A stretch of 64,000 nt of DNA from positions 2,046,001-2,110,000 of the forward strand of contig CABHOK010000003.1 of NCBI GenBank assembly GCA_902168205.1, written 5' to 3'. The DNA is from an uncultured Chitinophaga sp. Lineage in GTDB: Bacteria; Bacteroidota; Bacteroidia; Cytophagales; Cyclobacteriaceae. Position numbers and translations under genes: made by a program. The notes below the pieces were generated by a model that ran no database searches, had not been told where the DNA came from, and worked only from the letters and a program-made list of their open reading frames with translations. Shown piece after piece: positions 6,609-41,621 of this stretch. Numbering within the stretch: the stretch's first letter is position 1; each line of letters begins with the position of its first letter.

Positions 6609-8123
6609 ATGATATATAGTAAATTTTCAAAACGCTTTTTAGTCGGTAGCCTCAGTGCATTATTTGTTCTTTCTTCCTGTACAAACCTTCATACAGATGA
6701 AGTTGATTCAATCGTGATTGATAACACAGGAGGTACAACAACAGGTAATCCCACCGAGTTGCTTGCCGGTACGTATAGTGACTTAAGTGCATTCACAGAT
6801 CAGGCTGGCGTGTATTCTTTGTATGAGCATACGACAGATGAAATGATACCACCTACACGTGGAACAGACTGGGGTGATAACGGTGTATGGCGCCAGTTAT
6901 ACCAGCACACCTGGGACCCTACCCATACATACGTGGTAAACTCATGGAATATTCTTAACCAACGTGCTTACAAGTGTAACCAGGTTCTTGCTTCAAACCC
7001 TTCTGAACAGGAAGCTGCTGAAGCTAAATTCCTGCGTGCATTCTTCATGTGGCACGTAATGGATTTGTTTGGTAAAGTTCCGTTCCGCGAAGTGGGAGAA
7101 GGTGTTGATGTTAATCCGAAAGTGATGACACGTTCGGAAGCATTTGATTTCATCGTGAAGGACCTCGAAGAAGCACTGCCCGATCTGCCAAGCCCTGCGC
7201 CCTCTGCAGAAAATTCAAAGGCATCAAAAGCAGCAGCCTATACGTTGCTGGCCAGACTATATCTGAACAAGGCGGTATATAAAGCATCAAGTCCGGAGGG
7301 ACCTTATACTTTTGATGCCGCCGATATGGATAAAGTTATTGACTATGCCGATGAAGTAGCCGCACTGGGATATGCGTTGGAAGATCAGTACTTCGTGAAC
7401 TTCACAACAGCAGCGCAGTCAGAAATTATCTTCACCAGCCCGACTGGTACCCCTGAAAACCGCTATAGAATGACGCTGCACTATAACAACAACCCCGATG
7501 GTTGGAATGGTTTTGCAACACTGGCTGACTTCTACGCAACATTCGAGGAAGATGATATTCGCAGAGGTATACCGGCAACTCCGAATGGAAGCCAATACTC
7601 TGGTCTAGGAAGAGGTTTTCTGTTAGGACAGCAGTATAAAGATGATGGTTCAATCATCATCAACGCACGTAACAGCAAGCCGCTTGCCTTTACGAAGGAA
7701 GTACCGCTTACCGGTGCCTCTACAGAAGCTGGTATACGCGTAATCAAGTATCACCCGCTGGACAAAGGAAAGTATATCTTCATGCGCTATGCAGATGTAT
7801 ACCTGATGAAAGTGGAAGCATTGTTCAGAAAAGGAAGTACAGCAGAAGCTCTGGACGAGATCAACGATCTGCGTACACTTCGTGGTGCATCTGTACTGGG
7901 CTCGCTTGATGAAACAAGTATATTGGCCGAAAGAGGTCGCGAATTATACTGGGAAGGTCTGCGAAGACTTGATCAGGTCCGCTTTGGTACATTCAACAAC
8001 ACATGGCAGGATAAGTCTAACACCGAAACATATCGCGTGTTGTATCCGATTCCGCAGCAGGCATTGGATTCAAACCCTAACCTGAAGCAGAATAAAGGTT
8101 ATCCTGGATACGTAGGCGACTAA
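6609..8123 (+). CDS. SusD/RagB-family outer-membrane glycan-binding lipoprotein
   Basis: A 504-aa surface lipoprotein. The signal peptide ends in a lipobox, LSSC, with Cys24 as lipidation site. Downstream is a TPR-like helical SusD fold with recognisable motifs (AEAKFLRAFFMWHVMDLFGKVPF near residue 140; MRYADVYLMKVEALFRKGS near 395; RGRELYWEGLRRLDQVRFG near 440). It caps the SusC transporter encoded 15 bases upstream and binds the incoming oligosaccharide. A terminator follows, so susC-susD is probably a transcript separate from the genes after it. Confidence 0.94.
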   Translation: MIYSKFSKRFLVGSLSALFVLSSCTNLHTDEVDSIVIDNTGGTTTGNPTELLAGTYSDLSAFTDQAGVYSLYEHTTDEMIPPTRGTDWGDNGVWRQLYQHTWDPTHTYVVNSWNILNQRAYKCNQVLASNPSEQEAAEAKFLRAFFMWHVMDLFGKVPFREVGEGVDVNPKVMTRSEAFDFIVKDLEEALPDLPSPAPSAENSKASKAAAYTLLARLYLNKAVYKASSPEGPYTFDAADMDKVIDYADEVAALGYALEDQYFVNFTTAAQSEIIFTSPTGTPENRYRMTLHYNNNPDGWNGFATLADFYATFEEDDIRRGIPATPNGSQYSGLGRGFLLGQQYKDDGSIIINARNSKPLAFTKEVPLTGASTEAGIRVIKYHPLDKGKYIFMRYADVYLMKVEALFRKGSTAEALDEINDLRTLRGASVLGSLDETSILAERGRELYWEGLRRLDQVRFGTFNNTWQDKSNTETYRVLYPIPQQALDSNPNLKQNKGYPGYVGD

Positions 8124-32515: not shown

Positions 32516-33306
32516 TTAGTCACCACCACCGCATCCGCCACAACCGGAGCAACCACTGTCTCCTGAGCTACAGCCACTGTCTGAACTGCAACCACTGGAG
32601 TGGCTGTGGCTATCAAAGGAAGACCAACATCCGGAAGAACTGGAGGTTGGCCAGTAAGTAGAGCATCCGCTGGTATCGGTGCTTGCTCTTCGATCAAATT
32701 CCTGCTGCAACTCTATTTCTATTTCTTTCGCCAGCGTTGTATCAAAAGATGCCAGCAGAAAGATGTTGCCATCAATGGATTTCAAATTGTCCAATATGCG
32801 CTGGTCTTTGTTCTCCCTGTACGCGGTAACAAGTTTTTCCAACGTTTCGAATTCAAAGTCAATGGCTGCGTTTGTAGATATACCACCGGATGTATACGAG
32901 AAACCACCGAATAGTCTTTGCAGCCAGTTTCGCTTAACGATGTCTTGCAGTGTATATGACTTAAGTATCATGGACACGTATCTTGTTTGTGAGCCTGCAT
33001 TTTCGTAACCGATTCGTACAGCATTGTCAAAAAGTAATTTCAGTATATTGTTTTGAAGGAATGGTGAGAGGAAAACATGTTCGTGCGCCAGGCCGGTATA
33101 TTCGTGAAATCTTTTTCCAATGCGTATATACCGGTACGTTTTAAAGGAATTTTGGAGATCTGTTTGCAGTTTCATTTCTTCGATTTCAAGCACTTGGTGT
33201 ACAGGAGATCCATCAAGGTATATTTCAACAGATCTTTCAGTGGTGCTGCTGGTCCGCTTCGGATGAGCAGTGTTTCCGCCGGGGTCAGTTTAGTTAATTG
33301 ATTCAT
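32516..33306 (-). pseudogene. TIGR04222-like Cys/Gly/Ser-rich protein, frameshifted near the 5' end
   Basis: The gene begins at ATG 33306, sharing ATGA with the stop of the upstream gene. The first 44 codons (MNQLTKLTPAETLLIRSGPA... DLLKYTLMDLLYT) end at a TGA at 33172-33174. The rest of the protein continues in another frame from about 33200 (QVLEIEEMKLQTD...), ending in a Cys/Ser/Gly-rich tail (SSGDSGCSGCGGCGGGD). One missing base near 33195-33210 would restore about 263 continuous residues. The layout (helical body plus C-rich tail, GRDP-like neighbour) recalls TIGR04222 proteins, whose function is unknown. It could be a true mutation, an assembly error or a -1 recoding event. The downstream frame can start at GTG 33193. 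Confidence 0.65.
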
Positions 33307-33794
33307 AGTATAAATGGTTTTTTGATAATCCAGTTTTTGTCAAGATTTATACGTTGATAATTGATTTCGCTAAATCGCTTTTGATTGACCGGCCATATAT
33401 CAGCAGGTGGTGGTTCTTGGAATATAGCGGTATAGGTGTCCAATGTTTTGGTATACCAGTCGTTGAATTTCTCGCCTTCCTGTTTGCCTCCTTTTGTAGG
33501 ACCGTGATGAACTTCACGCTTCAGTACGGTAGCGCAAAATTCTTTCCAGTACGAGTATGTATATAGCAGGTGTAAGTGCCATACCTGGTCAACCTGATCG
33601 GAAGGAGTGAGCGGATGTCCTGCCACACAAATGAGGAACATGAATTTCTTATACTCCTCAATGGTGCGCAAGGTATATTCCAGTGTCCATCCGTTTTCGC
33701 GCGCCAGTCTGCTGCTAAACGGAAACGCGGATTCAGGATCGTCCAATTCAAACGCCCGTACTTTTAGCCAGAGCGCACGTTGTTCTTCCGTCAT
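33303..33794 (-). CDS. GRDP-like (DUF1399/glycine-rich-domain-like) protein
   Basis: A 163-aa cytosolic protein. The signature AGHPLTPSDQVDQVWHLHLLYTYSYWKEFC (about 55-85) matches the plant/bacterial GRDP (DUF1399) family, with its conserved VDxxWHxHL. A Trp/His-rich C-terminal half follows. The molecular role is not known. Its stop overlaps the start of the Cys-rich gene (ATGA), so the two are translationally coupled and probably work together. Confidence 0.75.
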   Translation of the reverse strand: MTEEQRALWLKVRAFELDDPESAFPFSSRLARENGWTLEYTLRTIEEYKKFMFLICVAGHPLTPSDQVDQVWHLHLLYTYSYWKEFCATVLKREVHHGPTKGGKQEGEKFNDWYTKTLDTYTAIFQEPPPADIWPVNQKRFSEINYQRINLDKNWIIKKPFIL

Positions 33795-34023: not shown

Positions 34024-34440
34024 TTAGGAGATAACCAGTAGTACACCGCAGATAATAAATATAGCACCCAATGCGGTTTTTAGGGTAAGCGATTCATTCA
34101 GGAATAGTACCGAAAGAATAATCGTAAGGGCTACGCTTAATTTATCCACCGGTGCAACCTGTGATACCTTTCCCAATTGCAATGCTTTGAAATAAAACAA
34201 CCACGATAAACCGGTTGCAATACCGGAGAGAACAATGAAAATGATGTTGTTTTTGTTAAGTGAACTGGTGAGTAAAACAACATTTCCTTTGAAGAATACA
34301 AGGGTCCATGTAATTACCATGATGACCAGTGTACGTATAGCGGTTGCCAGATCGGAGTCAACGTCTTTTATACCAACTTTGGCAAAAATGGCTGTGAGCG
34401 AAGCAAACAACGCTGACAGCGGTGCATAGATCCACCACAT
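34024..34440 (-). CDS. EamA/DMT-family small membrane transporter
   Basis: A 138-aa inner-membrane protein with about five hydrophobic helices forming a single EamA unit (YAPLSALFASLTAIFAKVGIKDVDS at the start; SQVAPVDKLSVALTIILSVLFLNESLTLKTALGAIFIICGVLL at the end). It is half the length of two-unit DMT transporters, so it probably works as a dimer. It is the last gene of the minus-strand run, 47 bases after the polytopic membrane protein, and may or may not belong to that operon. Substrate unknown. Confidence 0.85.
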   Translation of the reverse strand: MWWIYAPLSALFASLTAIFAKVGIKDVDSDLATAIRTLVIMVITWTLVFFKGNVVLLTSSLNKNNIIFIVLSGIATGLSWLFYFKALQLGKVSQVAPVDKLSVALTIILSVLFLNESLTLKTALGAIFIICGVLLVIS

Positions 34441-34487
34441 ATATAGTGTATTAGTTTATATACAAGGTACAAAGACGATGTGAAAGA

Positions 34488-35525
34488 TCAGATCCTTGCC
34501 TGCGAATCTTTGGAGAAGCGCCAGATGAATCCATCCAGAACGTAGTGGGTAATCTGCGGCAAGACCAACAAGGGTACAATCACCGAGAGTATAAAAGGAT
34601 TGTCTAAGGGGTCATGCGCTGTAAAGAATGGAAATATATCCGGATGATCTTTCCACACCAGGATGTCCCACAAAGTCTCTTCGAAATAGGCGAGACCCAG
34701 CAATATAGTCATGAAGATGGCGATACCCTTCCAGCCAAATGAAAAGCCCGGAGCTTTCTTTTCTCCGTGAATCCAGATCAAACCCATATAGGGTATACCG
34801 TGCGCCACCACGTTGAGCAATGTAAAAATCAGGTCCCCCTGAAAGGTGATGATGCCAACGTACCACGACAAGTATGTACCCAGCATGATCATATTCTTAG
34901 GTATATTCAGTAATTTGTTCTGATAACTAACCCACGCTTCTTTGACCATATAGAAAACGATGATTGCTATAAATATACCCTGAACTATATCTGAAGCAAT
35001 AATGGATTTCAGGGCCACAAAATCACCCTGCACAAACCAGCTCAATTTGGATGTGAGGTGCAGGTGCCAGTATAAAAGCGGGTATAGCGTAGCATTGTAG
35101 ATGGCCACCGTATCAATGGTTCGAGATAATTTTGAGGCTGCTTCTTTGCGAGAGTATAATCGTATAAAGCCGTATTGCTGCCGCACAAAATGGAACGCTG
35201 CTACATAAGCGAGTATTCTCCAGAACAACATGGAGTCGTAGAAGTGTAGGCCCGCGCCTATCAAGAATGCTGTTACCGGTATCGTGATCAACAGACTTTT
35301 ATACTTTACGAAAGTAGGCTTGTCCCAATAAAAGCGGAATAAGGTGCTATATACGTGGCTCACGTCAATGCACAACACGAGGAGTACCCACCAGAAGCTG
35401 GAGACCTCGTGACTTATAAAGTAATCCTGAAATATAAAAATGGCAACCACGGGCAGGAGCGAAGGGGCCAGTATCAAGCCAATCTCTTTCTGCGGATCGC
35501 AAAGCCACGGTTGCTTCGTTGTCAT
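34488..35525 (-). CDS. Polytopic membrane protein with conserved-looking histidines
   Basis: A 345-aa protein of unknown function with about eight hydrophobic segments. Polar residues recur at helix ends: DVSHVYSTLFRFYWDKP (near 54), AAFHFVRQQYGFIRLY (near 109), VVAHGIPYMGLIWIHGEK (near 239) and THYVLDGFIWRFSK (near 327). Four His-containing helix motifs with Asp, Arg and Trp recall membrane-embedded metal enzymes, but I cannot assign a family. The gene starts 17 bases after the FAD oxidoreductase and is the distal member of the polyamine-type operon. Confidence 0.75.
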   Translation of the reverse strand: MTTKQPWLCDPQKEIGLILAPSLLPVVAIFIFQDYFISHEVSSFWWVLLVLCIDVSHVYSTLFRFYWDKPTFVKYKSLLITIPVTAFLIGAGLHFYDSMLFWRILAYVAAFHFVRQQYGFIRLYSRKEAASKLSRTIDTVAIYNATLYPLLYWHLHLTSKLSWFVQGDFVALKSIIASDIVQGIFIAIIVFYMVKEAWVSYQNKLLNIPKNMIMLGTYLSWYVGIITFQGDLIFTLLNVVAHGIPYMGLIWIHGEKKAPGFSFGWKGIAIFMTILLGLAYFEETLWDILVWKDHPDIFPFFTAHDPLDNPFILSVIVPLLVLPQITHYVLDGFIWRFSKDSQARI

Positions 35526-35542
35526 ATACCTATATTAATCGG

Positions 35543-37168
35543 TTATGAAATTTTAAACAGGTCACGCTCCAATATCCTGCGAATGGCCGTATGGCCGCGG
35601 TAAAATGCCTCTTCGAAGATTGAGACACCACTCATGTCGGAATGAGCAAAGTATATTTTACCTTCTACAGGTACAGCTGCTTGCAGGCGTGTTTCTCCAG
35701 TTATAAAGCCGGGGGAAGGTTTAATCATGCCGTGTCCCCATACCCACGCGTCAAACTGCTTGATATAATGCTCAATGTCCTTGTGCGGTCTACGAAGGTC
35801 TTGCAGCGTTGTAGTTTTCCAATCCTCTATGGTGGCACGATAGGCTTGTTCGCGAAGCTTTTTAATATCACTACCCAATAGCGGCTTGTAATACGTTACA
35901 ACGTTCTGGTTACCGTGAAATCCGATCTGCTGATGTGTAGCGTTCACATAACCGAGTGAATCACTTCCGTAAATTACATTGTCCCAGCAAAGTTTTTCGC
36001 CTTTGCGTTCTTCCAGTGTAGCATCGAGCGTGATGTTGGCTACCATCCATGGTGCGTATTGAAACGCAGTGTAATCGAGCGCGCGGTTCAACGAAGGTTT
36101 CAACAACCGTTGATTGATGAACTGCGGTGTTGCCAGCACAGCAGCATGAGCTGTGATTTGTTTCGTCTTGTTTGTGGCAGCATCAAAATATAGCACCGAT
36201 ACGCCCGTGGCTGTTGTCTCAACCGAATATACCAGTGTATTGGTTTTTATTTGAGACACTACATCTTTTCGTAATTGTTTTACAAGCCAGTAATTTCCTT
36301 CGGGCCAGGTGAGCATCGTGTCGGAAGATGCGTTTGCAGCTTTGCCTTTTCGCGAAGCAAAGTAATGAATGCCGGCCCATGCCGATGTGTCGGCTAATGA
36401 CGAACCAAAGTCATCGGCACAACAGTAATTTACGTACCAGCGCAAATATGGTGAAGTAAATTTGTTCTGTGCGAGAAACTCCTCCATGGAAATGGAATCC
36501 AGCACGCGGTACTTTTTATCCTGTGATGAATGATCAACCGGTATGGCAAATGCTTCCCGGCCATCACTACCTCGCTGATCTTTATAGTCATGCATCAGTG
36601 CGAGGAAGCGTTCAATTTCCTGGCGATCTTTCTCCGGTACGCCTTCGCGCGGTGTCAGACCTTCCTGCCAGAAGTTATTGATATATAGTCTTTCTTTCGG
36701 ATCAAAACAGAGATGATATTCATTGTATACTGGCAGCCCGTTTTCAAAGCCGGTTATAACATTGGCTTTCTGCAGAAAAGCAATGAGCTCCGGATCGTTG
36801 TTGCCCGGCAGTGGCAAATAGTGTGCCCCCCATGGATAAGCAGATATAGCATTGCTTCCGGCCATGGCGTTGCCACCGGTATCATTATCCAGTTCAAGCA
36901 AAATAAAATTACCGGTATACTTTTTCAGGTAACGCGCTGCGGATAGTCCGGATACACCACCGCCAATAATTACAACGTCTGCGCTACTGCTTTCGGATGG
37001 TGCATCAAATTTACCGGTGCGCAGCATATGTCCTAACTGCGCGTTAGGACCAACGAGGTTTGACGGGTATGCGGAAGGTGTAGTGCAGGATTGCAGTGCT
37101 GATAACAACAGCGATGAACCGGCTGCTGCCTGCATGGAATGCTTTACAAATTTTCTGCGCGAGATCAT
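35543..37168 (-). CDS. Tat-exported FAD-dependent oxidoreductase (amine-oxidase-like)
   Basis: A 541-aa flavoprotein. The N-terminus has a twin-arginine motif (SRRKFVK, residues 3-9), a hydrophobic stretch and a possible lipobox (LSALQSC), so it is likely exported folded and perhaps lipid-anchored. The FAD-binding dinucleotide fold is VVIIGGGVSGLSAARYL (about 65-81) with LLELDNDTGGNA, and the C-terminal FAD-site segment is IYFAHSDMSGVSIFEEAFYRG. It belongs to the amine oxidase/phytoene desaturase-like group. Its start overlaps the SpeE-like stop by 4 bases (ATGA), implying coupling, so an amine or polyamine product is a natural candidate substrate (inference). Confidence 0.82.
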   Translation of the reverse strand: MISRRKFVKHSMQAAAGSSLLLSALQSCTTPSAYPSNLVGPNAQLGHMLRTGKFDAPSESSSADVVIIGGGVSGLSAARYLKKYTGNFILLELDNDTGGNAMAGSNAISAYPWGAHYLPLPGNNDPELIAFLQKANVITGFENGLPVYNEYHLCFDPKERLYINNFWQEGLTPREGVPEKDRQEIERFLALMHDYKDQRGSDGREAFAIPVDHSSQDKKYRVLDSISMEEFLAQNKFTSPYLRWYVNYCCADDFGSSLADTSAWAGIHYFASRKGKAANASSDTMLTWPEGNYWLVKQLRKDVVSQIKTNTLVYSVETTATGVSVLYFDAATNKTKQITAHAAVLATPQFINQRLLKPSLNRALDYTAFQYAPWMVANITLDATLEERKGEKLCWDNVIYGSDSLGYVNATHQQIGFHGNQNVVTYYKPLLGSDIKKLREQAYRATIEDWKTTTLQDLRRPHKDIEHYIKQFDAWVWGHGMIKPSPGFITGETRLQAAVPVEGKIYFAHSDMSGVSIFEEAFYRGHTAIRRILERDLFKIS

Positions 37169-38691
37169 CGTGTATAATCAGCCCATTCTTTTTCAAAGGT
37201 ATTCACCAGCACCTGATTGTTCAGCGTGTTGTACGGACTTTCTGCCACACGCATGTCCGGAGGAAAATTTTCCATCTGCCTGATGGTTTCCTCATTCACA
37301 AAGCGAAGGTCTTTTGGAAGATTGAAGTGTTGTGACAGACTTTCTTTATATCCCAATACAAATCCCCATTCTCCGAAGGAAGGAACATAGCAATGGTAGG
37401 GCGTTGTCAGAAAACCGCTTTGACGCAAGGTACGATCAATGATCCAGAAAGAGTTTTTAGCAACAAAAGGTGATGTCGATTGAATGACGAGACAACCTTG
37501 TGGCGCCAGTATACGGTAAAGTTCTTTATAGAAAGAGACGGTATATAGTTTGCCGAGCGAGTAATTGGATGGATCCGGAAAATCCACCACGATAAAATCA
37601 AATGTTTTTTGATGTTCGCGAATCCACACAAAGGCATCGGTGTTGATCACGCGTACCTTCGGTGATGTGAGAGCGTGGTGGTTGAGTTTCATCAACGCAC
37701 TGTTCGATTGAAACAGGTCGGTCATAACTTTGTCCAGATCGACCAGCGTAATAGTCTCCACCGAAGTATATTTGAGTATTTCCCGCACCGCCATACCATC
37801 ACCACCTCCGAGTACAAGTACATGTTTTGGTGCTTTCATTTGAGCAAGTCCCGGGTGAACCAGCGCTTCATGATAGCGATATTCATCCGCAGAACTGAAC
37901 TGTAAATTTCCATTCAGAAATAAACGCCAGTCCATCACACTGCGGGTTAATACAATGCGCTGGTAAGGGCTTGACCGCGCATATACCACTTTGTCAGGAT
38001 ACGTAAGTGATTCGGCAAGTGCTGTTAATTTTTCAGAGAGTATAAATCCGGATGCGAGCAGGAGCAGACACACAACCGCAGACCATTTCAACCGGTGATA
38101 ACTTCTGATCTCGTTCCTGAATTTATACGCAACGATCCACGCGACAACAACATTCAGAAACCCGAAGAAGAAAGATGTGCGCAATAGTCCGAGATAGGGT
38201 ATAAATAATAGCGGAAACAGGAGCGAAGCAAACAACGCACCGATATAGTCGAAGGTAAAGATCCGTGAAACGAGATCGCTGAATTCAATGCGGTCTTTCA
38301 GAATGCGCATGAGCAACGGTAATTCCAGACCTACAAGTGTACCGGTAAGAATCACGAGGGTATATAGAATTACCCTGAAATATACTACCTGTTCAAACAG
38401 TATAAAGAGTATACCGGCACTGAATCCGCCCACCATCCCCACGAGCAGTTCGATGCTGATAAACCAGCTCAGTAAATTTGATTTCAGGAATCGCGAGAGG
38501 TACGATCCGATACCCATAGCAAACAGGTATGTACCAATAATGGTGGAGAACTGGGTAACGGAATCTCCCAACAGGTAGCTGGCCAACGTACCGGCTACCA
38601 GTTCATAGATCAATCCGCAGGTGGCTACTACAAATACAGATATGAGCAGTAACCATTGAAAACTGCCGGCTTTACTTTCCTGTTTGTACAT
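37165..38691 (-). CDS. Membrane-embedded SpeE-like aminopropyltransferase
   Basis: A 508-aa protein fusing a membrane part (about seven helices, residues 15-220) to a spermidine-synthase domain (about 230-500). The nucleotide-binding motif is VLVLGGGDGMAVREIL (near 290), the acidic loop is ITLVDLDKVM, and the active-site region is VVDFPDPSNYSLGKLYTVSFY (near 370). Known membrane-anchored SpeE homologs are proposed to transfer aminopropyl groups to membrane-associated acceptors. It is encoded with a SpeD homolog, DUF350 and DUF4178 in one operon, which supports such a role. The acceptor is unknown. Confidence 0.88.
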   Translation of the reverse strand: MYKQESKAGSFQWLLLISVFVVATCGLIYELVAGTLASYLLGDSVTQFSTIIGTYLFAMGIGSYLSRFLKSNLLSWFISIELLVGMVGGFSAGILFILFEQVVYFRVILYTLVILTGTLVGLELPLLMRILKDRIEFSDLVSRIFTFDYIGALFASLLFPLLFIPYLGLLRTSFFFGFLNVVVAWIVAYKFRNEIRSYHRLKWSAVVCLLLLASGFILSEKLTALAESLTYPDKVVYARSSPYQRIVLTRSVMDWRLFLNGNLQFSSADEYRYHEALVHPGLAQMKAPKHVLVLGGGDGMAVREILKYTSVETITLVDLDKVMTDLFQSNSALMKLNHHALTSPKVRVINTDAFVWIREHQKTFDFIVVDFPDPSNYSLGKLYTVSFYKELYRILAPQGCLVIQSTSPFVAKNSFWIIDRTLRQSGFLTTPYHCYVPSFGEWGFVLGYKESLSQHFNLPKDLRFVNEETIRQMENFPPDMRVAESPYNTLNNQVLVNTFEKEWADYTR

Positions 38692-38700
38692 GAATACAGA

Positions 38701-38907
38701 TTAGCTATGAATAGCCGAGCCTATGATAATTCCCATGGCAATCATAAAGGCACCCGCAACAATAGCGAGTGCTATATTGTTCTTCTCGATGATCTCTTTC
38801 CAGAGGTTTTCCGGTGTGATCTTTTCAAAGATCCAGAAGCATATACCGAGTATAATAATGCCGACCAGTGAAAAGACGATCGATGCGAGTACATATTTCC
38901 ATTCCAT
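38701..38907 (-). CDS. DUF350 small membrane protein
   Basis: A 68-aa protein with two hydrophobic helices (about 5-28 and 43-65), characters of a half-size DUF350 unit: FSLVGIIILGICFWIFEKITP and NIALAIVAGAFMIAMGIIIGSAI. E. coli YjfL is the best-known DUF350 protein and its operon (yjfIJKLM-yjfC) also includes a PspA homolog and a glutathionylspermidine synthetase-like ATP-grasp. The gene here lies 9 bases before the SpeE-like gene, repeating the link between DUF350 and polyamine chemistry. Confidence 0.85.
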   Translation of the reverse strand: MEWKYVLASIVFSLVGIIILGICFWIFEKITPENLWKEIIEKNNIALAIVAGAFMIAMGIIIGSAIHS

Positions 38908-38921
38908 AGTATGTTGTTGGT

Positions 38922-39095
38922 TTATTTGTGGTAAAAGTATCCTCTGGCGTGGCCACGTGTGGCGCTTTTTTCATGTGTGGTTTTGGTAGCGTTTAACCAA
39001 CGCCAGCCAATCATGTTCGAGTAAATATAAAAACCGATTACTACGGCAGAGAAGCCGAGGTAATATTTAAGTCCTTTCAGTTCGTCCCAACGCAT
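38922..39095 (-). CDS. 57-aa single-helix membrane protein in the polyamine operon
   Basis: A short gene that is easily missed: ATG 39095 to TAA 38922, 57 aa. It starts MRWDELKGLKYYLGFSAVVI, has one hydrophobic helix (about 11-26, YYLGFSAVVIGFYIYS), then a Trp/Arg-rich juxtamembrane part (NMIGWRWLNATK) and a basic, His/Tyr-rich tail (TRGHARGYFYHK). Spacing is 9 bases from the DUF4178 gene and 14 from DUF350, so it fits exactly into the operon. Function unknown; probably an inner-membrane accessory subunit. Confidence 0.7.
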   Translation of the reverse strand: MRWDELKGLKYYLGFSAVVIGFYIYSNMIGWRWLNATKTTHEKSATRGHARGYFYHK

Positions 39096-39104
39096 AGGCG
39101 TAAA

Positions 39105-40358
39105 TTATTCTTCAGTTGCATAAGGTGAATAGTCGCTGTCTTCCCAGCGTTTTGCTTCGAGCATATATTTGCGAATAAAAAATACAGCAGGGAAGATCGC
39201 GAGCAATACCAGGATAACAATAAAGTTCGACAGGGATGAAACATCGCGCACCACCCTGATCGAAAAGGATTGATACGACACGCTGAACTCAGGGTATATA
39301 TTGATGTGGTAACGTCCTTCCGGAATTTCGGATAAAAACGCTTCGCCACGGGTGGAACCTTCGCTCCACGATTCTCCATCTTCATACCCCGAATAGTATT
39401 CTATATCTTTTGAAAAGTTATACTCGGTACCTGTTGTTTCATTGATGAGCGCAAAGTCTGCATAGAACCAGTCGTTTACCAATGGAGCATAAATATCCAT
39501 GGCAACGCTTTTGGTTCCTCCTTTTAAGTCAAATGAAGATGATACAAAGAACTTCTGATCTTTCAGTTCGCTCTGGTTGAATGTGCCACTGAAAACTACT
39601 TCTTCCTTGGCGCTACTGTTAAAGTAAAACTGAAGTGCAATAATCACTAGCAAAATAGCAAGCGATGCCTTGATCAGCGTTCCTTCTTTAAATGAAGTAA
39701 CCACCGGCTGCGTGTAACCACGTCCTTCTTTTTTCGGAAGTCGGCTCACCGGTATATTAAATGCCTGGGCTACTTCCTGCGGTGAGCAATATTCTCCCTT
39801 ACACCACAGAAGACTATCACCGTTTTTTTCAAGTGTAGTCATGTAAGGCGGAGCTATATATTCGTGGTTCGTTGTTGATGCGGTAAGGTCTACCACATCA
39901 AAGAAAAACTCTCCGCGTGCATAGATTACATCTGCCCTATACTTCTGATATAGTCGATAGAAGCTTTCCTCATAGTAAAATTCCATGTCGGGGTTGTCCT
40001 TGGGACCAACTTCGACAGGCCATACGAAATTCCAGTTGCCGCTATACTCCGACAGGAAAGCATATCCGTGCATCGGGTTGAAGAGCAGGTACTCGCGCCA
40101 CTTGTAATGGTATTTGCTTTCCTGTTTTACCACGAAGCCCATTACTTCATAGACAACGCCATCAAATTTACCTTTGGCTCCAATCGGTATAGCGGGTTCA
40201 TCTTTATAGCCAAATATATTCCGGTCGGTATTCCACTTACCTAAACGCACATAGTATTGACACGAGCTGCAGGTCATGGCGAGTGTCATGGCTTTGCCGC
40301 GAACCGTATTAACCGTGCCGCAATTGAGACAGGTTATTGTATAGTTACTTCCACTCAT
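39105..40358 (-). CDS. DUF4178 protein with zinc ribbon and two membrane helices
   Basis: A 417-aa protein. An N-terminal zinc ribbon (CLNC...CSSC, residues about 10-34) is followed by a DUF4178 domain (about 50-200; IGAKGKFDGVVYEVMGF, WREYLLFNPMHGYAFLSEY). A membrane helix lies at about 228-246, then a beta-rich domain and a second helix at about 378-398 with a short acidic tail. This topology puts a beta-sandwich outside and DUF4178 inside. The gene overlaps the shorter DUF4178 gene by 14 bases. DUF4178 has no proven activity; it recurs with DUF350 and polyamine-type enzymes. Confidence 0.85.
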   Translation of the reverse strand: MSGSNYTITCLNCGTVNTVRGKAMTLAMTCSSCQYYVRLGKWNTDRNIFGYKDEPAIPIGAKGKFDGVVYEVMGFVVKQESKYHYKWREYLLFNPMHGYAFLSEYSGNWNFVWPVEVGPKDNPDMEFYYEESFYRLYQKYRADVIYARGEFFFDVVDLTASTTNHEYIAPPYMTTLEKNGDSLLWCKGEYCSPQEVAQAFNIPVSRLPKKEGRGYTQPVVTSFKEGTLIKASLAILLVIIALQFYFNSSAKEEVVFSGTFNQSELKDQKFFVSSSFDLKGGTKSVAMDIYAPLVNDWFYADFALINETTGTEYNFSKDIEYYSGYEDGESWSEGSTRGEAFLSEIPEGRYHINIYPEFSVSYQSFSIRVVRDVSSLSNFIVILVLLAIFPAVFFIRKYMLEAKRWEDSDYSPYATEE

Positions 40359-40983
40359 CCCAGGTAAGTATATTTTTGAGATTAAGTTCTTCCAGTGTTA
40401 CTTTTTGTCCGGAAAGAACGTGTCTGTTATTTTTTTTGATCGTGAAGAACGCAGTCTGTCCGCTGCCGTTGCTGGCCTGAATAAGGAAGAAGCCCGGATA
40501 GAATAAATTCCACGGCCCGATCTCCCCGGTATAGCTTATGCCTTCACATTTCTCTACATACTCACCTCGCAGCGTAACGTTGTTGGCGAGAATGACTTTC
40601 TTGCCGGCATGCAGTTGTGAAAGATCATTTTTCACCTCTGTCCAGGATGCTGTAAACAGCGCGAAGCTTCCAAAAGACTCTGCAATCCAGAGGCACTTTC
40701 CGCCATCGCAGGTAGTACACCAGAAATTTTTGTAGTCGTTGCGTAGCTGAAGGCGTAATCTCCCGATAACGGTGAAATTATACTCCTTATACACTCCGGT
40801 GGTTCCGATCTGCAGGAAACTCCAGTCATCCGGAATGTGTGCGGCCTTTGGCTTCTCTGAATCAGCCACGTTATCAGCCACAATTTCATTGCATACCTGG
40901 CAAATGACCAGCGTGGCATCATTCAGTTGTACCTTATGAGCCGTGCTGCAACCCGGACAATTATAAACTGTATTTTGTTTCAC
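40345..40983 (-). CDS. DUF4178 protein with N-terminal zinc ribbon (soluble)
   Basis: A 212-aa protein without membrane helices. The N-terminal ribbon is CPGC...CQVC (about 9-31). The DUF4178 part (about 55-205) contains LQIGTTGVYKEYNFTVIGRLRLQ and NLFYPGFFLIQASNGSGQTAFF. It starts with GTG 2 bases after the SpeD-like stop and overlaps the longer DUF4178 gene by 14 bases. The two DUF4178 proteins probably form a soluble/membrane pair. Function unknown. Confidence 0.82.
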   Translation of the reverse strand: MKQNTVYNCPGCSTAHKVQLNDATLVICQVCNEIVADNVADSEKPKAAHIPDDWSFLQIGTTGVYKEYNFTVIGRLRLQLRNDYKNFWCTTCDGGKCLWIAESFGSFALFTASWTEVKNDLSQLHAGKKVILANNVTLRGEYVEKCEGISYTGEIGPWNLFYPGFFLIQASNGSGQTAFFTIKKNNRHVLSGQKVTLEELNLKNILTWDEWK

Positions 40984-40985
40984 GG

Positions 40986-41345
40986 TTAGCGGTTGATGAT
41001 TTGTTCGAACAGGATATCGGCATGAAAGAAATTACAAACGGCTTTGTATAGCCCTTCCGTTGTAGCGCGATTGTCTCTGAGGAAATTGGACAGGAAAACA
41101 TCAAACGTTATGTAATTCTGTTCCGGCCAGGTGTGGATGGAAAGATGAGACTCGGTGAGACAAACCACACCGGTAAAGCCACCGCCAGGAAAGTTATGAT
41201 ATACTTCTCCAACCTTGTTCAGTTGGAAAGCTTCTATCTGATCGTTGATAAAATTTTGAAAAGCATGATAGTCGCCCAGCTTGGCGATGTCGGGAACGGA
41301 AAAGTTCGCAACAATGTGTAAGCCGGGTATAGACGTTTGTGTCAT
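40986..41345 (-). CDS. SpeD-like pyruvoyl S-adenosylmethionine decarboxylase homolog
   Basis: A 119-aa protein. ATG 41345 gives the normal start of small bacterial SpeD proteins; an in-frame TTG at 41384 would add 13 residues. The self-cleavage site is visible: LTESHLSIHTWPE, with Ser66 as pyruvoyl precursor and His71 for processing. By alignment with Thermotoga SpeD (Ser63, His68, Cys83), the catalytic Cys is replaced, Ser86 standing in its place (FDVFLS). That suggests altered chemistry, for example decarboxylation of another amino acid. It is first in a tightly packed operon with DUF4178, DUF350 and a SpeE-like enzyme. Confidence 0.85.
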   Translation of the reverse strand: MTQTSIPGLHIVANFSVPDIAKLGDYHAFQNFINDQIEAFQLNKVGEVYHNFPGGGFTGVVCLTESHLSIHTWPEQNYITFDVFLSNFLRDNRATTEGLYKAVCNFFHADILFEQIINR

Positions 41346-41621
41346 AGCCGGAGTCTTCACAGGTACAGAATAGGGAGTGTTCAAGTGAACAACGTTTTGG
41401 TAAGGTTACTAATTTTTTCGGAACTGTTCAAATTATACGCCAATCCCGTAAGGGGTTGATACTCTTGAGGCTTGAGACTTGTGTTTTCCGGAATATAGAC
41501 ACTTCATTCCCAGCCCATTTACGCAGACAGTGTTTGACGACAGCAGGCTTGTGTTCATCGAAAAAATTTTAGCAGCCCCGTACGGTAAACCAATTTTCCG
41601 GTACATTAAATTTAAACAACT

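Follow-up and report, generated by a model that had tools for sequence, protein, structure and literature searches.

What does a SpeE-type protein modify when its enzyme domain is fused to a membrane domain and its gene lies in one operon with further membrane proteins and an exported flavoprotein? The question is raised by eight genes in a stretch of 64,000 nucleotides (“the window”) from an uncultured Chitinophaga sp. (contig CABHOK010000003.1, positions 2,046,001 to 2,110,000), which encode, in this order, a SpeD-like protein, two DUF4178-type proteins (a and b), a membrane protein of 57 amino acids (aa), a DUF350 protein, the SpeE fusion, a flavoprotein with a twin-arginine translocation (Tat) type start and a polytopic membrane protein (Table 1). 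We propose, tentatively and with slightly less than even confidence, that the membrane-fused SpeE aminopropylates the C-terminal lysine of the 57-aa protein on the outer face of the membrane, which would make this a protein-modification operon.

We searched 392 genomes of the window's phylum and separately scanned named genomes by SpeE, obtaining 94 loci, 14 from the phylum genome search and 80 named loci. The named loci, the 80 best among at least 552 found, are biased towards close relatives of the SpeE protein and include many records of metagenome-assembled genomes (MAGs). A partner was scored as co-occurring when it lay no more than 10 kb to either side within the locus, and the window's genome together with the 14 closest others is referred to as the core genomes (n = 15).

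The strongest clue is the end of the 57-aa protein, which the first-pass annotation had correctly listed as a membrane protein while overlooking its C-terminal His-Lys (HK). In all 93 testable loci, the stretch from DUF4178b to DUF350 (or to SpeE) holds exactly one open reading frame (ORF) of 30–110 aa that ends in HK (the count omits L087, a short contig in which no DUF4178b was found, and uses the second tandem copy in L050), and random regions of the same loci hold an HK-ended ORF in 15 of 4647 cases. With the window's protein included, all 94 sequences end in this way. Their bodies share a median pairwise identity of about 18%, and the last two residues alone are invariant; one hydrophobic segment lies above threshold in 89 of the 94, and a Gly is conserved in 87. 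Across the 93 loci, the His codon is CAC in 47 and CAT in 46, the Lys codon AAA in 78 and AAG in 15, and the stop codons that follow are of three kinds, split 70/18/5. This variety of codons and stops indicates that selection at the HK end acts on the amino acids. In Novosphingobium sp. ES2-1 the small protein, annotated as hypothetical, lies between DUF4178 and DUF350 and ends in SHK. The window's protein contains no Cys, hence no lipobox, and neither it nor the polytopic protein gives a Pfam match at E 1 or an NCBIfam match at E 0.1.

The block around the small protein is conserved as well. SpeE is matched at E 1e-30 in 34 of the 392 genomes, and the match also covers the membrane part in 27, including the window's genome. 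Beside SpeE and in the window's order, SpeD, DUF4178b and DUF350 are found in all 14 closest other genomes, the flavoprotein in 12 and the polytopic protein in 10. In the 80 named loci the partners near SpeE are DUF4178b (79), the flavoprotein (78), DUF350 (72), SpeD (64), the polytopic protein (57) and DUF4178a (42). Both DUF350 and DUF4178 belong to the frequent partners in the core. As a control, 11 other neighbours in the window were scored in the same loci, of which nine reach 0 or 1 and the others 2 and 10 (EamA 0, ClpP 0, sigma factor 1, histidine kinase 2, LytTR 10); in the 14 genome-search loci an SGNH hydrolase scores 5 and the ten others are never seen. The operon block thus recurs, complete or partial, in 94 loci beyond the window, and the neighbouring genes hardly do. 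That the gene order is kept in relatives, which the first-pass annotation had set as a check of its proposal, is borne out. The order SpeD-DUF4178b-DUF350-SpeE-flavoprotein-polytopic protein is found in 42 of the 94 loci (leaving the small protein and DUF4178a out of account), and in 14 further loci SpeD stands after the flavoprotein or the polytopic protein, once on the opposite strand. Labels of the named loci include Bacteroidota, Verrucomicrobia, Leptospiraceae, Nitrospirae, Sphingomonas, Thiobacillus, Obscuribacter and others, among which MAG names may be wrong; the closest of the best 80 is Parachryseolinea silvisoli (SpeE 78%).

Several layouts deviate from this pattern. In Solitalea agri (L050, 6059–9931) DUF4178b and DUF350 occur in two tandem copies upstream of SpeE. 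A genome of the same family as the window's carries a fused SpeD–SpeE ORF without the membrane part (L042, 8521–9822), and membrane-fused SpeE was found in none of the eight same-family genomes listed. An ORF cluster was seen near the cassette in 17 loci, including L076, L091, L098, L099, L100, L104, L110, L111, L112 and L114; its member in L104 belongs to the band-7/SPFH proteins and carries a GYF_2 domain. In Novosphingobium the gene preceding DUF4178 encodes a band-7 protein with a weak SHOCT match.

By family, the window's SpeE is predicted to be an aminopropyltransferase dependent on decarboxylated S-adenosylmethionine (dcAdoMet). It matches NCBIfam NF002956, polyamine aminopropyltransferase, with 664 bits (cut-off 472), its acidic motif DFPDP (DxxDP) is invariant in 13 aligned sequences, features of the dcAdoMet site are present, and the Q and DEYRYHE residues are retained in the alignment. 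We take DxxDP, Q and DEYRYHE to correspond to the known functional residues of aminopropyltransferases. Seven hydrophobic segments precede the Spermine_synth domain in 107 sequences; over these sequences, with segment borders set by eye and loops of differing length, the N-terminus and loops 2, 4 and 6 have summed K/R values of about 2–3.7, versus 0.1–0.9 for loops 1, 3 and 5. If the N-terminus is inside, as the positive-inside rule would have it from this K/R bias, the SpeE domain would lie on the outer face.

Tails of a related kind recur in other SpeE-fusion loci. Of 12 more distant fusion loci, 10 have a partner that ends in GK after a Gly/Ser/Arg-rich tail, and in the other two the end is GG. 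A lipoprotein-type family, clustered regardless of its ends, is present in seven of the 12, and all seven members end in GK after a Ser/Arg/Gly-rich tail; in L032 the tail is carried by the DUF4178 protein (...RGFGK), and in L026 and L027 a directed look revealed GK-ended small membrane proteins. The membrane proteins of L028 and L029 end in RSYGG. That of L028 adjoins a GSP_synth gene (273 bits), and the ORF next to that of L029 resembles the L028 ligase gene by look. Escherichia coli YgiB and YjfM likewise end in GG and adjoin YgiC and YjfC, which are peptide-spermidine ligases by RefSeq name, so that in all four cases the Gly-Gly ends stand beside ligase-type genes (for L029 with the ligase assigned by look). 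From 16 plasmid matches we took eight (H1, H2, H5, H8, H10, H11, H13 and H14), of which the six with a full fusion all show a Lys tail: HK in Novosphingobium and Burkholderia, GK in Alteromonas, Gemmatirosa and Ensifer, and VK in Tritonibacter. The HK-ended ORF of L152 sits on the opposite strand, beside SpeD and DUF4178, and came to light in a listing of HK- and GK-ended ORFs. Since the tail ends follow the type of the neighbouring enzyme, a Lys tail would go with a transferase that needs an amine and a Gly tail with a ligase that needs a carboxylate. Positions 6824–8920 of L028 hold SpeD, the GSP_synth ATP-grasp gene and the GG-tailed membrane protein, divergent from the SpeE fusion, and this locus unites both kinds of polyamine enzyme at one place.

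In the mechanism that we envisage, SpeD would make dcAdoMet, as its family suggests, and SpeE would move the aminopropyl group to the C-terminal Lys of the 57-aa protein instead of putrescine. Lysine resembles putrescine as an acceptor because its side chain ends in a 4-aminobutyl arm, and the transfer would yield Ne-(3-aminopropyl)lysine, giving a tail that resembles spermidine, with a mass increase of 57.06 Da. The SpeE domain, the Tat-exported flavoprotein and, less clearly, the peptide tail would share the outer side; dcAdoMet would be passed outward by the part of SpeE with seven transmembrane segments (7-TM), perhaps together with DUF350. In a later step the flavoprotein and the polytopic protein would work on the tail once it is modified, or on its product. 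The first-pass suggestion that a polyamine-type group is attached at the membrane is in this way supported as the likely chemistry. Hypusine, diphthamide and silaffin lysine polyamines carry aminobutyl, aminocarboxypropyl or aminopropyl units on a protein side chain; unlike the system envisaged here, they use other enzymes and internal residues and do not belong to the bacterial envelope. With still more reserve we extend the proposal to the family: membrane-fused SpeE proteins may be widespread outer-face protein aminopropyltransferases that make aminopropyl-lysine at the C-terminal end of a partner's flexible tail, with a sister ATP-grasp/Gly-Gly branch arriving at a comparable polyamine tail by amide ligation.

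The supply of ordinary polyamine bears on whether the operon is needed for it. SpeD keeps the processing motif ESHLSIHTWPE (the ESH site and His of class 1b AdoMet decarboxylases) and scores 73.9 bits, under the NCBIfam cut-off of 75.65 and above that of Pfam. At the position that we take, from T. maritima, to be that of the catalytic-acid Cys, the window has Ser; among front-placed copies the residue is Ser in 52 of 64 and Cys in 12, and among back-placed copies it is Cys in 14 of 14. We do not claim that front and back SpeD types were recruited independently, as a single clade for both is not rejected on a 58-row tree (approximately unbiased test, p-AU 0.269). The window's genome contains one SpeD and one strong SpeE, plus a second, borderline Spermine_synth match that lies on another contig. 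Neofunctionalised SpeD proteins acting as ornithine or arginine decarboxylase are described in the part of PMC10407285 drawn on here. We do not favour such a role for this copy, the genome's only SpeD match, because SpeE needs dcAdoMet; the Ser in place of the catalytic Cys is a counterpoint. Spermidine synthesis via nspC was rejected, with no core genome above the cut-off (0/15; weak matches in 9/15). A gene of the deoxyhypusine-synthase type, which the same part of PMC10407285 names as homospermidine synthase, SpeY, is present in all 15. Given the absence of nspC above cut-off and the presence of this gene throughout the core genomes, bulk polyamine is probably made elsewhere, and the operon would probably not be needed for ordinary polyamine. 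That free spermidine is not the purpose of the operon, as the first-pass annotation had supposed, is accordingly probable.

The last two genes encode proteins for which structure models were used. The flavoprotein is a flavin adenine dinucleotide (FAD) protein whose Tat-type start scores 16.2 bits with the NCBIfam Tat model, just below the cut-off of 16.7. Strong matches (E about 1e-198 or lower) are found in 13 of the 392 genomes, all 13 of them core genomes, and one further genome gives a weak match. Its model (predicted local distance difference test, pLDDT, 93) has an amine-oxidase fold with a Rossmann FAD site and matches putrescine oxidase and monoamine oxidase (MAO); against 2yg7_A, VIA-align gives Z 30.0 and a root-mean-square deviation (rmsd) of 3.2 over 422 aligned residues with 17% identity. 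By eye, no Lys is seen at the strand where the active-site Lys would be expected. Spermidine dehydrogenase (SpdH) was considered as the closest relative, but the N-terminal profile did not favour it and it is one of several similar folds. Whereas the window's flavoprotein thus shares the fold of FAD amine oxidases (putrescine oxidase, MAO, SpdH), it differs from them in being Tat-exported by prediction and in its low identity to 2yg7_A.

The polytopic protein has strong matches in 11 of the 392 genomes, all core. All 48 sequences compared share D54, H57, H112, H242, E282, E283, H327 and D331 as invariant residues, which suggests a candidate membrane metalloenzyme with a metal site within the membrane. 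Its model (pLDDT 92) gave no Foldseek match under E 0.001, and its best VIA match is a rhodopsin (Z 7.7, rmsd 4.6, 170 aligned). Weaker relatives outside the operon occur in 10 of the 392 genomes (E 1.6e-16 to 1.1e-29); six such relatives were examined, and Pfam scans of some neighbours of four gave no clear pointer. Relatives in other genomes (L137–L142) are about 380–450 aa long and richer in His (such as HDLQYHAIVWFHHKNRY), and that of L138 adjoins tryptophan-dioxygenase and kynureninase-type genes. SpeE and the HK protein are retained in loci L024 and L025, although at the thresholds applied neither the flavoprotein nor the polytopic protein is matched in the genomes concerned, and because of these two operons we regard both proteins as accessory, downstream or optional.

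An ORF check found the eight genes where the first-pass annotation had placed them on the minus strand, tightly packed between 41345 and 34488, with its spacing of 2–17 bases and its two overlaps of 14 and 4 bases. An alternative TTG start of the SpeD-like gene is possible at 41384. Counting two DUF4178 proteins was also correct: DUF4178a has no Pfam DUF4178 match of its own and is a divergent homologue, with 14 of 20 members of its alignment matching PF13785 and a profile-profile probability of 99.3%. Both copies begin with an invariant CxxC..CxxC pattern in the alignments, and they are fused as one gene in 16 of the 94 loci. In DUF4178b the zinc ribbon and the DUF4178 domain are followed, by eye in the alignment, by a hydrophobic segment, a second conserved domain and another hydrophobic segment. 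A DUF350 protein in L151 (5113–6027) is matched four times by the window's DUF350 profile. The EamA ORF had been described as a further gene 47 bases beyond the operon; it does lie at that distance (34024–34440, 138 aa, half-size), and we reject its membership, as it is near SpeE in none of the 80 named and none of the 14 other related loci. Based on these neighbour counts, the block extends from SpeD through the polytopic protein, with EamA excluded. Two minus-strand ORFs adjoin further on (32516–33193 and 33303–33794), one with a Ser/Gly/Cys/His-rich tail (...GCSGCGGCGGGD) and the other presumably resembling a glycine-rich-domain protein.

Table 1. Genes of the operon, in window coordinates, and the evidence for each assignment
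Feature	Position	Strand	Basis
SpeD-like, pyruvoyl AdoMet decarboxylase homologue	40986..41345	-	AdoMet_dc 1.2e-20
DUF4178-like protein a	40345..40983	-	CxxC..CxxC zinc-ribbon start, profile comparison
DUF4178 protein b	39105..40358	-	zinc ribbon + DUF4178 (2e-12)
57-aa single-pass membrane protein, end ...GYFYHK	38922..39095	-	place, size, hydrophobic segment, ending
Small DUF350 membrane protein of 68 aa (YjfL family)	38701..38907	-	DUF350 2.7e-15
SpeE with N-terminal membrane domain, about 7 hydrophobic segments	37165..38691	-	Spermine_synth 5e-39
Tat-signal flavoprotein, amine-oxidase fold	35543..37168	-	sequence + structure model
Polytopic membrane protein	34488..35525	-	invariant D/E/H residues, structure model

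Parts of this system have been described before. Li 2019 (Biochem J) is reported to show that SpeE fusions fail to stand in for the spermidine synthase of E. coli; the bacteria studied there are reported to lack spermidine, DUF350 is said to cluster with such fusions, and an acceptor other than putrescine was reportedly proposed. The enzyme family is very probably the same, and what is added here is a named candidate acceptor, the C-terminal Lys tail. In the literature as quoted, Li 2019 is cited for AdoMet decarboxylase with a fusion of major facilitator superfamily and spermidine synthase parts (MFS-SpdSyn) and DUF350. SpeE fused to seven TM segments, together with DUF350, DUF4178, a lipoprotein and a PspA-CesT/Tir dyad, is published (Ravi 2024, PMC11237479). 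In the sections of that paper used here, the PspA system is proposed to monitor polyamines or the aminopropylation of other substrates, an acceptor is left unnamed, and AdoMet decarboxylase and polyamine oxidase appear only with dyad-less variants under an ATP-grasp group, one with band-7; these variants may overlap the band-7 loci seen here. Judged by the same sections, the window's operon shares with the Ravi 2024 operon the N-terminal 7-TM SpeE fusion, DUF350, DUF4178 and polyamine chemistry tied to the membrane, but lacks PspA, has the HK-tailed small protein in place of the Ctha_1186 lipoprotein, adds SpeD, the Tat flavoprotein and the polytopic protein, and has a DUF350 protein of 68 aa, not 8TM. 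The lipoproteins of the more distant loci probably correspond to Ctha_1186, judging from place and signal.

No PspA match was found among the operon genes, the only PspA found in the genome being on another contig (CesT/Tir was not searched separately). A search of the 15 core genomes found no PspA in 11, and in the other four it is distant from the operon. Of the 12 more distant fusion genomes nine were taken (G158, G064 and G088 left out), and in five of these nine PspA and SpeE are no more than 3 kb apart. The first-pass description of a distinct version without PspA therefore holds, while its claim of an undescribed system was overstated in view of the association of 7-TM SpeE, DUF350 and DUF4178 in the published sections. 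The core association is already known, and the window's operon represents a version that does without PspA and has gained two partners, an exported protein with a modelled amine-oxidase fold and a membrane protein whose model has no recognised solved relative. The annotation was right that DUF350 is linked in E. coli to PspA-like and GSP-synthetase-like genes, in yjfIJKLMC. With YjfIJKLMC/YgiBC (cited to Pederick et al. 2023) the window's operon shares a DUF350 partner (YjfL) and, compared with their DUF1190 protein, a flexible tail beside a polyamine-linked enzyme; it has an aminopropyltransferase and a Lys tail where these have an ATP-grasp ligase and a Gly-Gly tail, and a family scan found no GSP_synth ATP-grasp ligase among the operon genes. 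A literature search returned one paper that mentions both DUF350 and DUF4178 and no paper joining C-terminal lysine, aminopropyl, polyamine, lipoprotein and bacteria.

A number of points weigh against aminopropylation of the tail. The weakest step is that, with the SpeE domain outside, dcAdoMet would have to cross the membrane, and we know of no precedent for dcAdoMet there; the outer placement itself is argued from the positive-inside rule. The K/R balance of the small protein predicts an inside N-terminus in 48 of 94 sequences, is equal in 26 and is opposite in 20. Because a similarity search with the window's small protein finds only 12 of the 80 and one of the 14 loci, the protein was recognised elsewhere by where it lies, how long it is, its hydrophobic segment and its last residues. 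By the time the tails of L026, L027 and the plasmids were looked for, the pattern was already known, and the seven loci with a GK lipoprotein-type protein include several close relatives, which makes fewer than seven independent cases. Terminal Lys is common, ending 147 of 1279 background ORFs of at least 250 aa (HK 3, GK 13), and as GK and VK tails have no His, the His of HK is left unexplained. The Cys-to-Ser change in SpeD might mean a weak or different activity, and the tail could serve as a docking or sorting signal.

This last point leads to the alternative that deserves most attention, albeit an unlikely one in our estimate: SpeE might aminopropylate a membrane lipid, a glycan or a small molecule, with the HK protein as a subunit that docks by its tail. 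A membrane-fused SpeE, a polytopic protein and an exported oxidase would suit a lipid substrate, and a docking tail might be just as invariant; yet one would hardly expect, on that account, a Gly-Gly tail precisely beside a GSP_synth-type ligase gene, or Lys recurring on seemingly unrelated proteins. A metal-binding tail, in which His, the terminal carboxylate and Lys hold a metal that serves the exported flavoprotein or else the polytopic protein with its several His, would account for the invariant His beside the C-terminus and for the four invariant His of the polytopic protein. We consider it very improbable, since GK and VK tails lack the His and since L024 and L025 have HK operons in genomes where neither supposed recipient is matched.

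The remaining alternatives concern the operon as a whole. It could be an envelope-stress system like that of the phage-shock proteins (PSP), whose polyamine part is either sensed or changes the membrane by modifying other substrates, as the used sections of Ravi 2024 would suggest. Partners such as DUF350, DUF4178 and band-7 proteins do occur in PspA operons or their variants, and PspA stands close to SpeE in more than half of the nine other fusion genomes checked; PspA is dispensable, however, given that none was found in most core genomes and that it is distant in the rest, and we judge this account improbable. Its view of the operon's purpose is compatible with tail aminopropylation, its chemistry is not. 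An ordinary spermidine (or spermine-type) synthase operon that is anchored in the membrane, its other genes being stress partners, would fit the SpeD and SpeE homologues and the NCBIfam name of the latter. It is a poor candidate in our view, for the deoxyhypusine-synthase type of gene offers a second polyamine route in every core genome and the co-occurrence of the small protein and the flavoprotein would be left unexplained; the results reported for Li 2019 also speak against it.

The invariant HK end on a partner from the same operon provides a concrete substrate candidate for the membrane-fused SpeE of many bacteria. If aminopropylation of this tail is true, it would add a polyamine-type protein modification to bacterial envelopes, a new post-translational modification, and would explain the DUF350 and DUF4178 partners as modification machinery. 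SpeE and peptide-spermidine-ligase operons would then follow a common scheme, with a tail residue suited to the chemistry of each enzyme.

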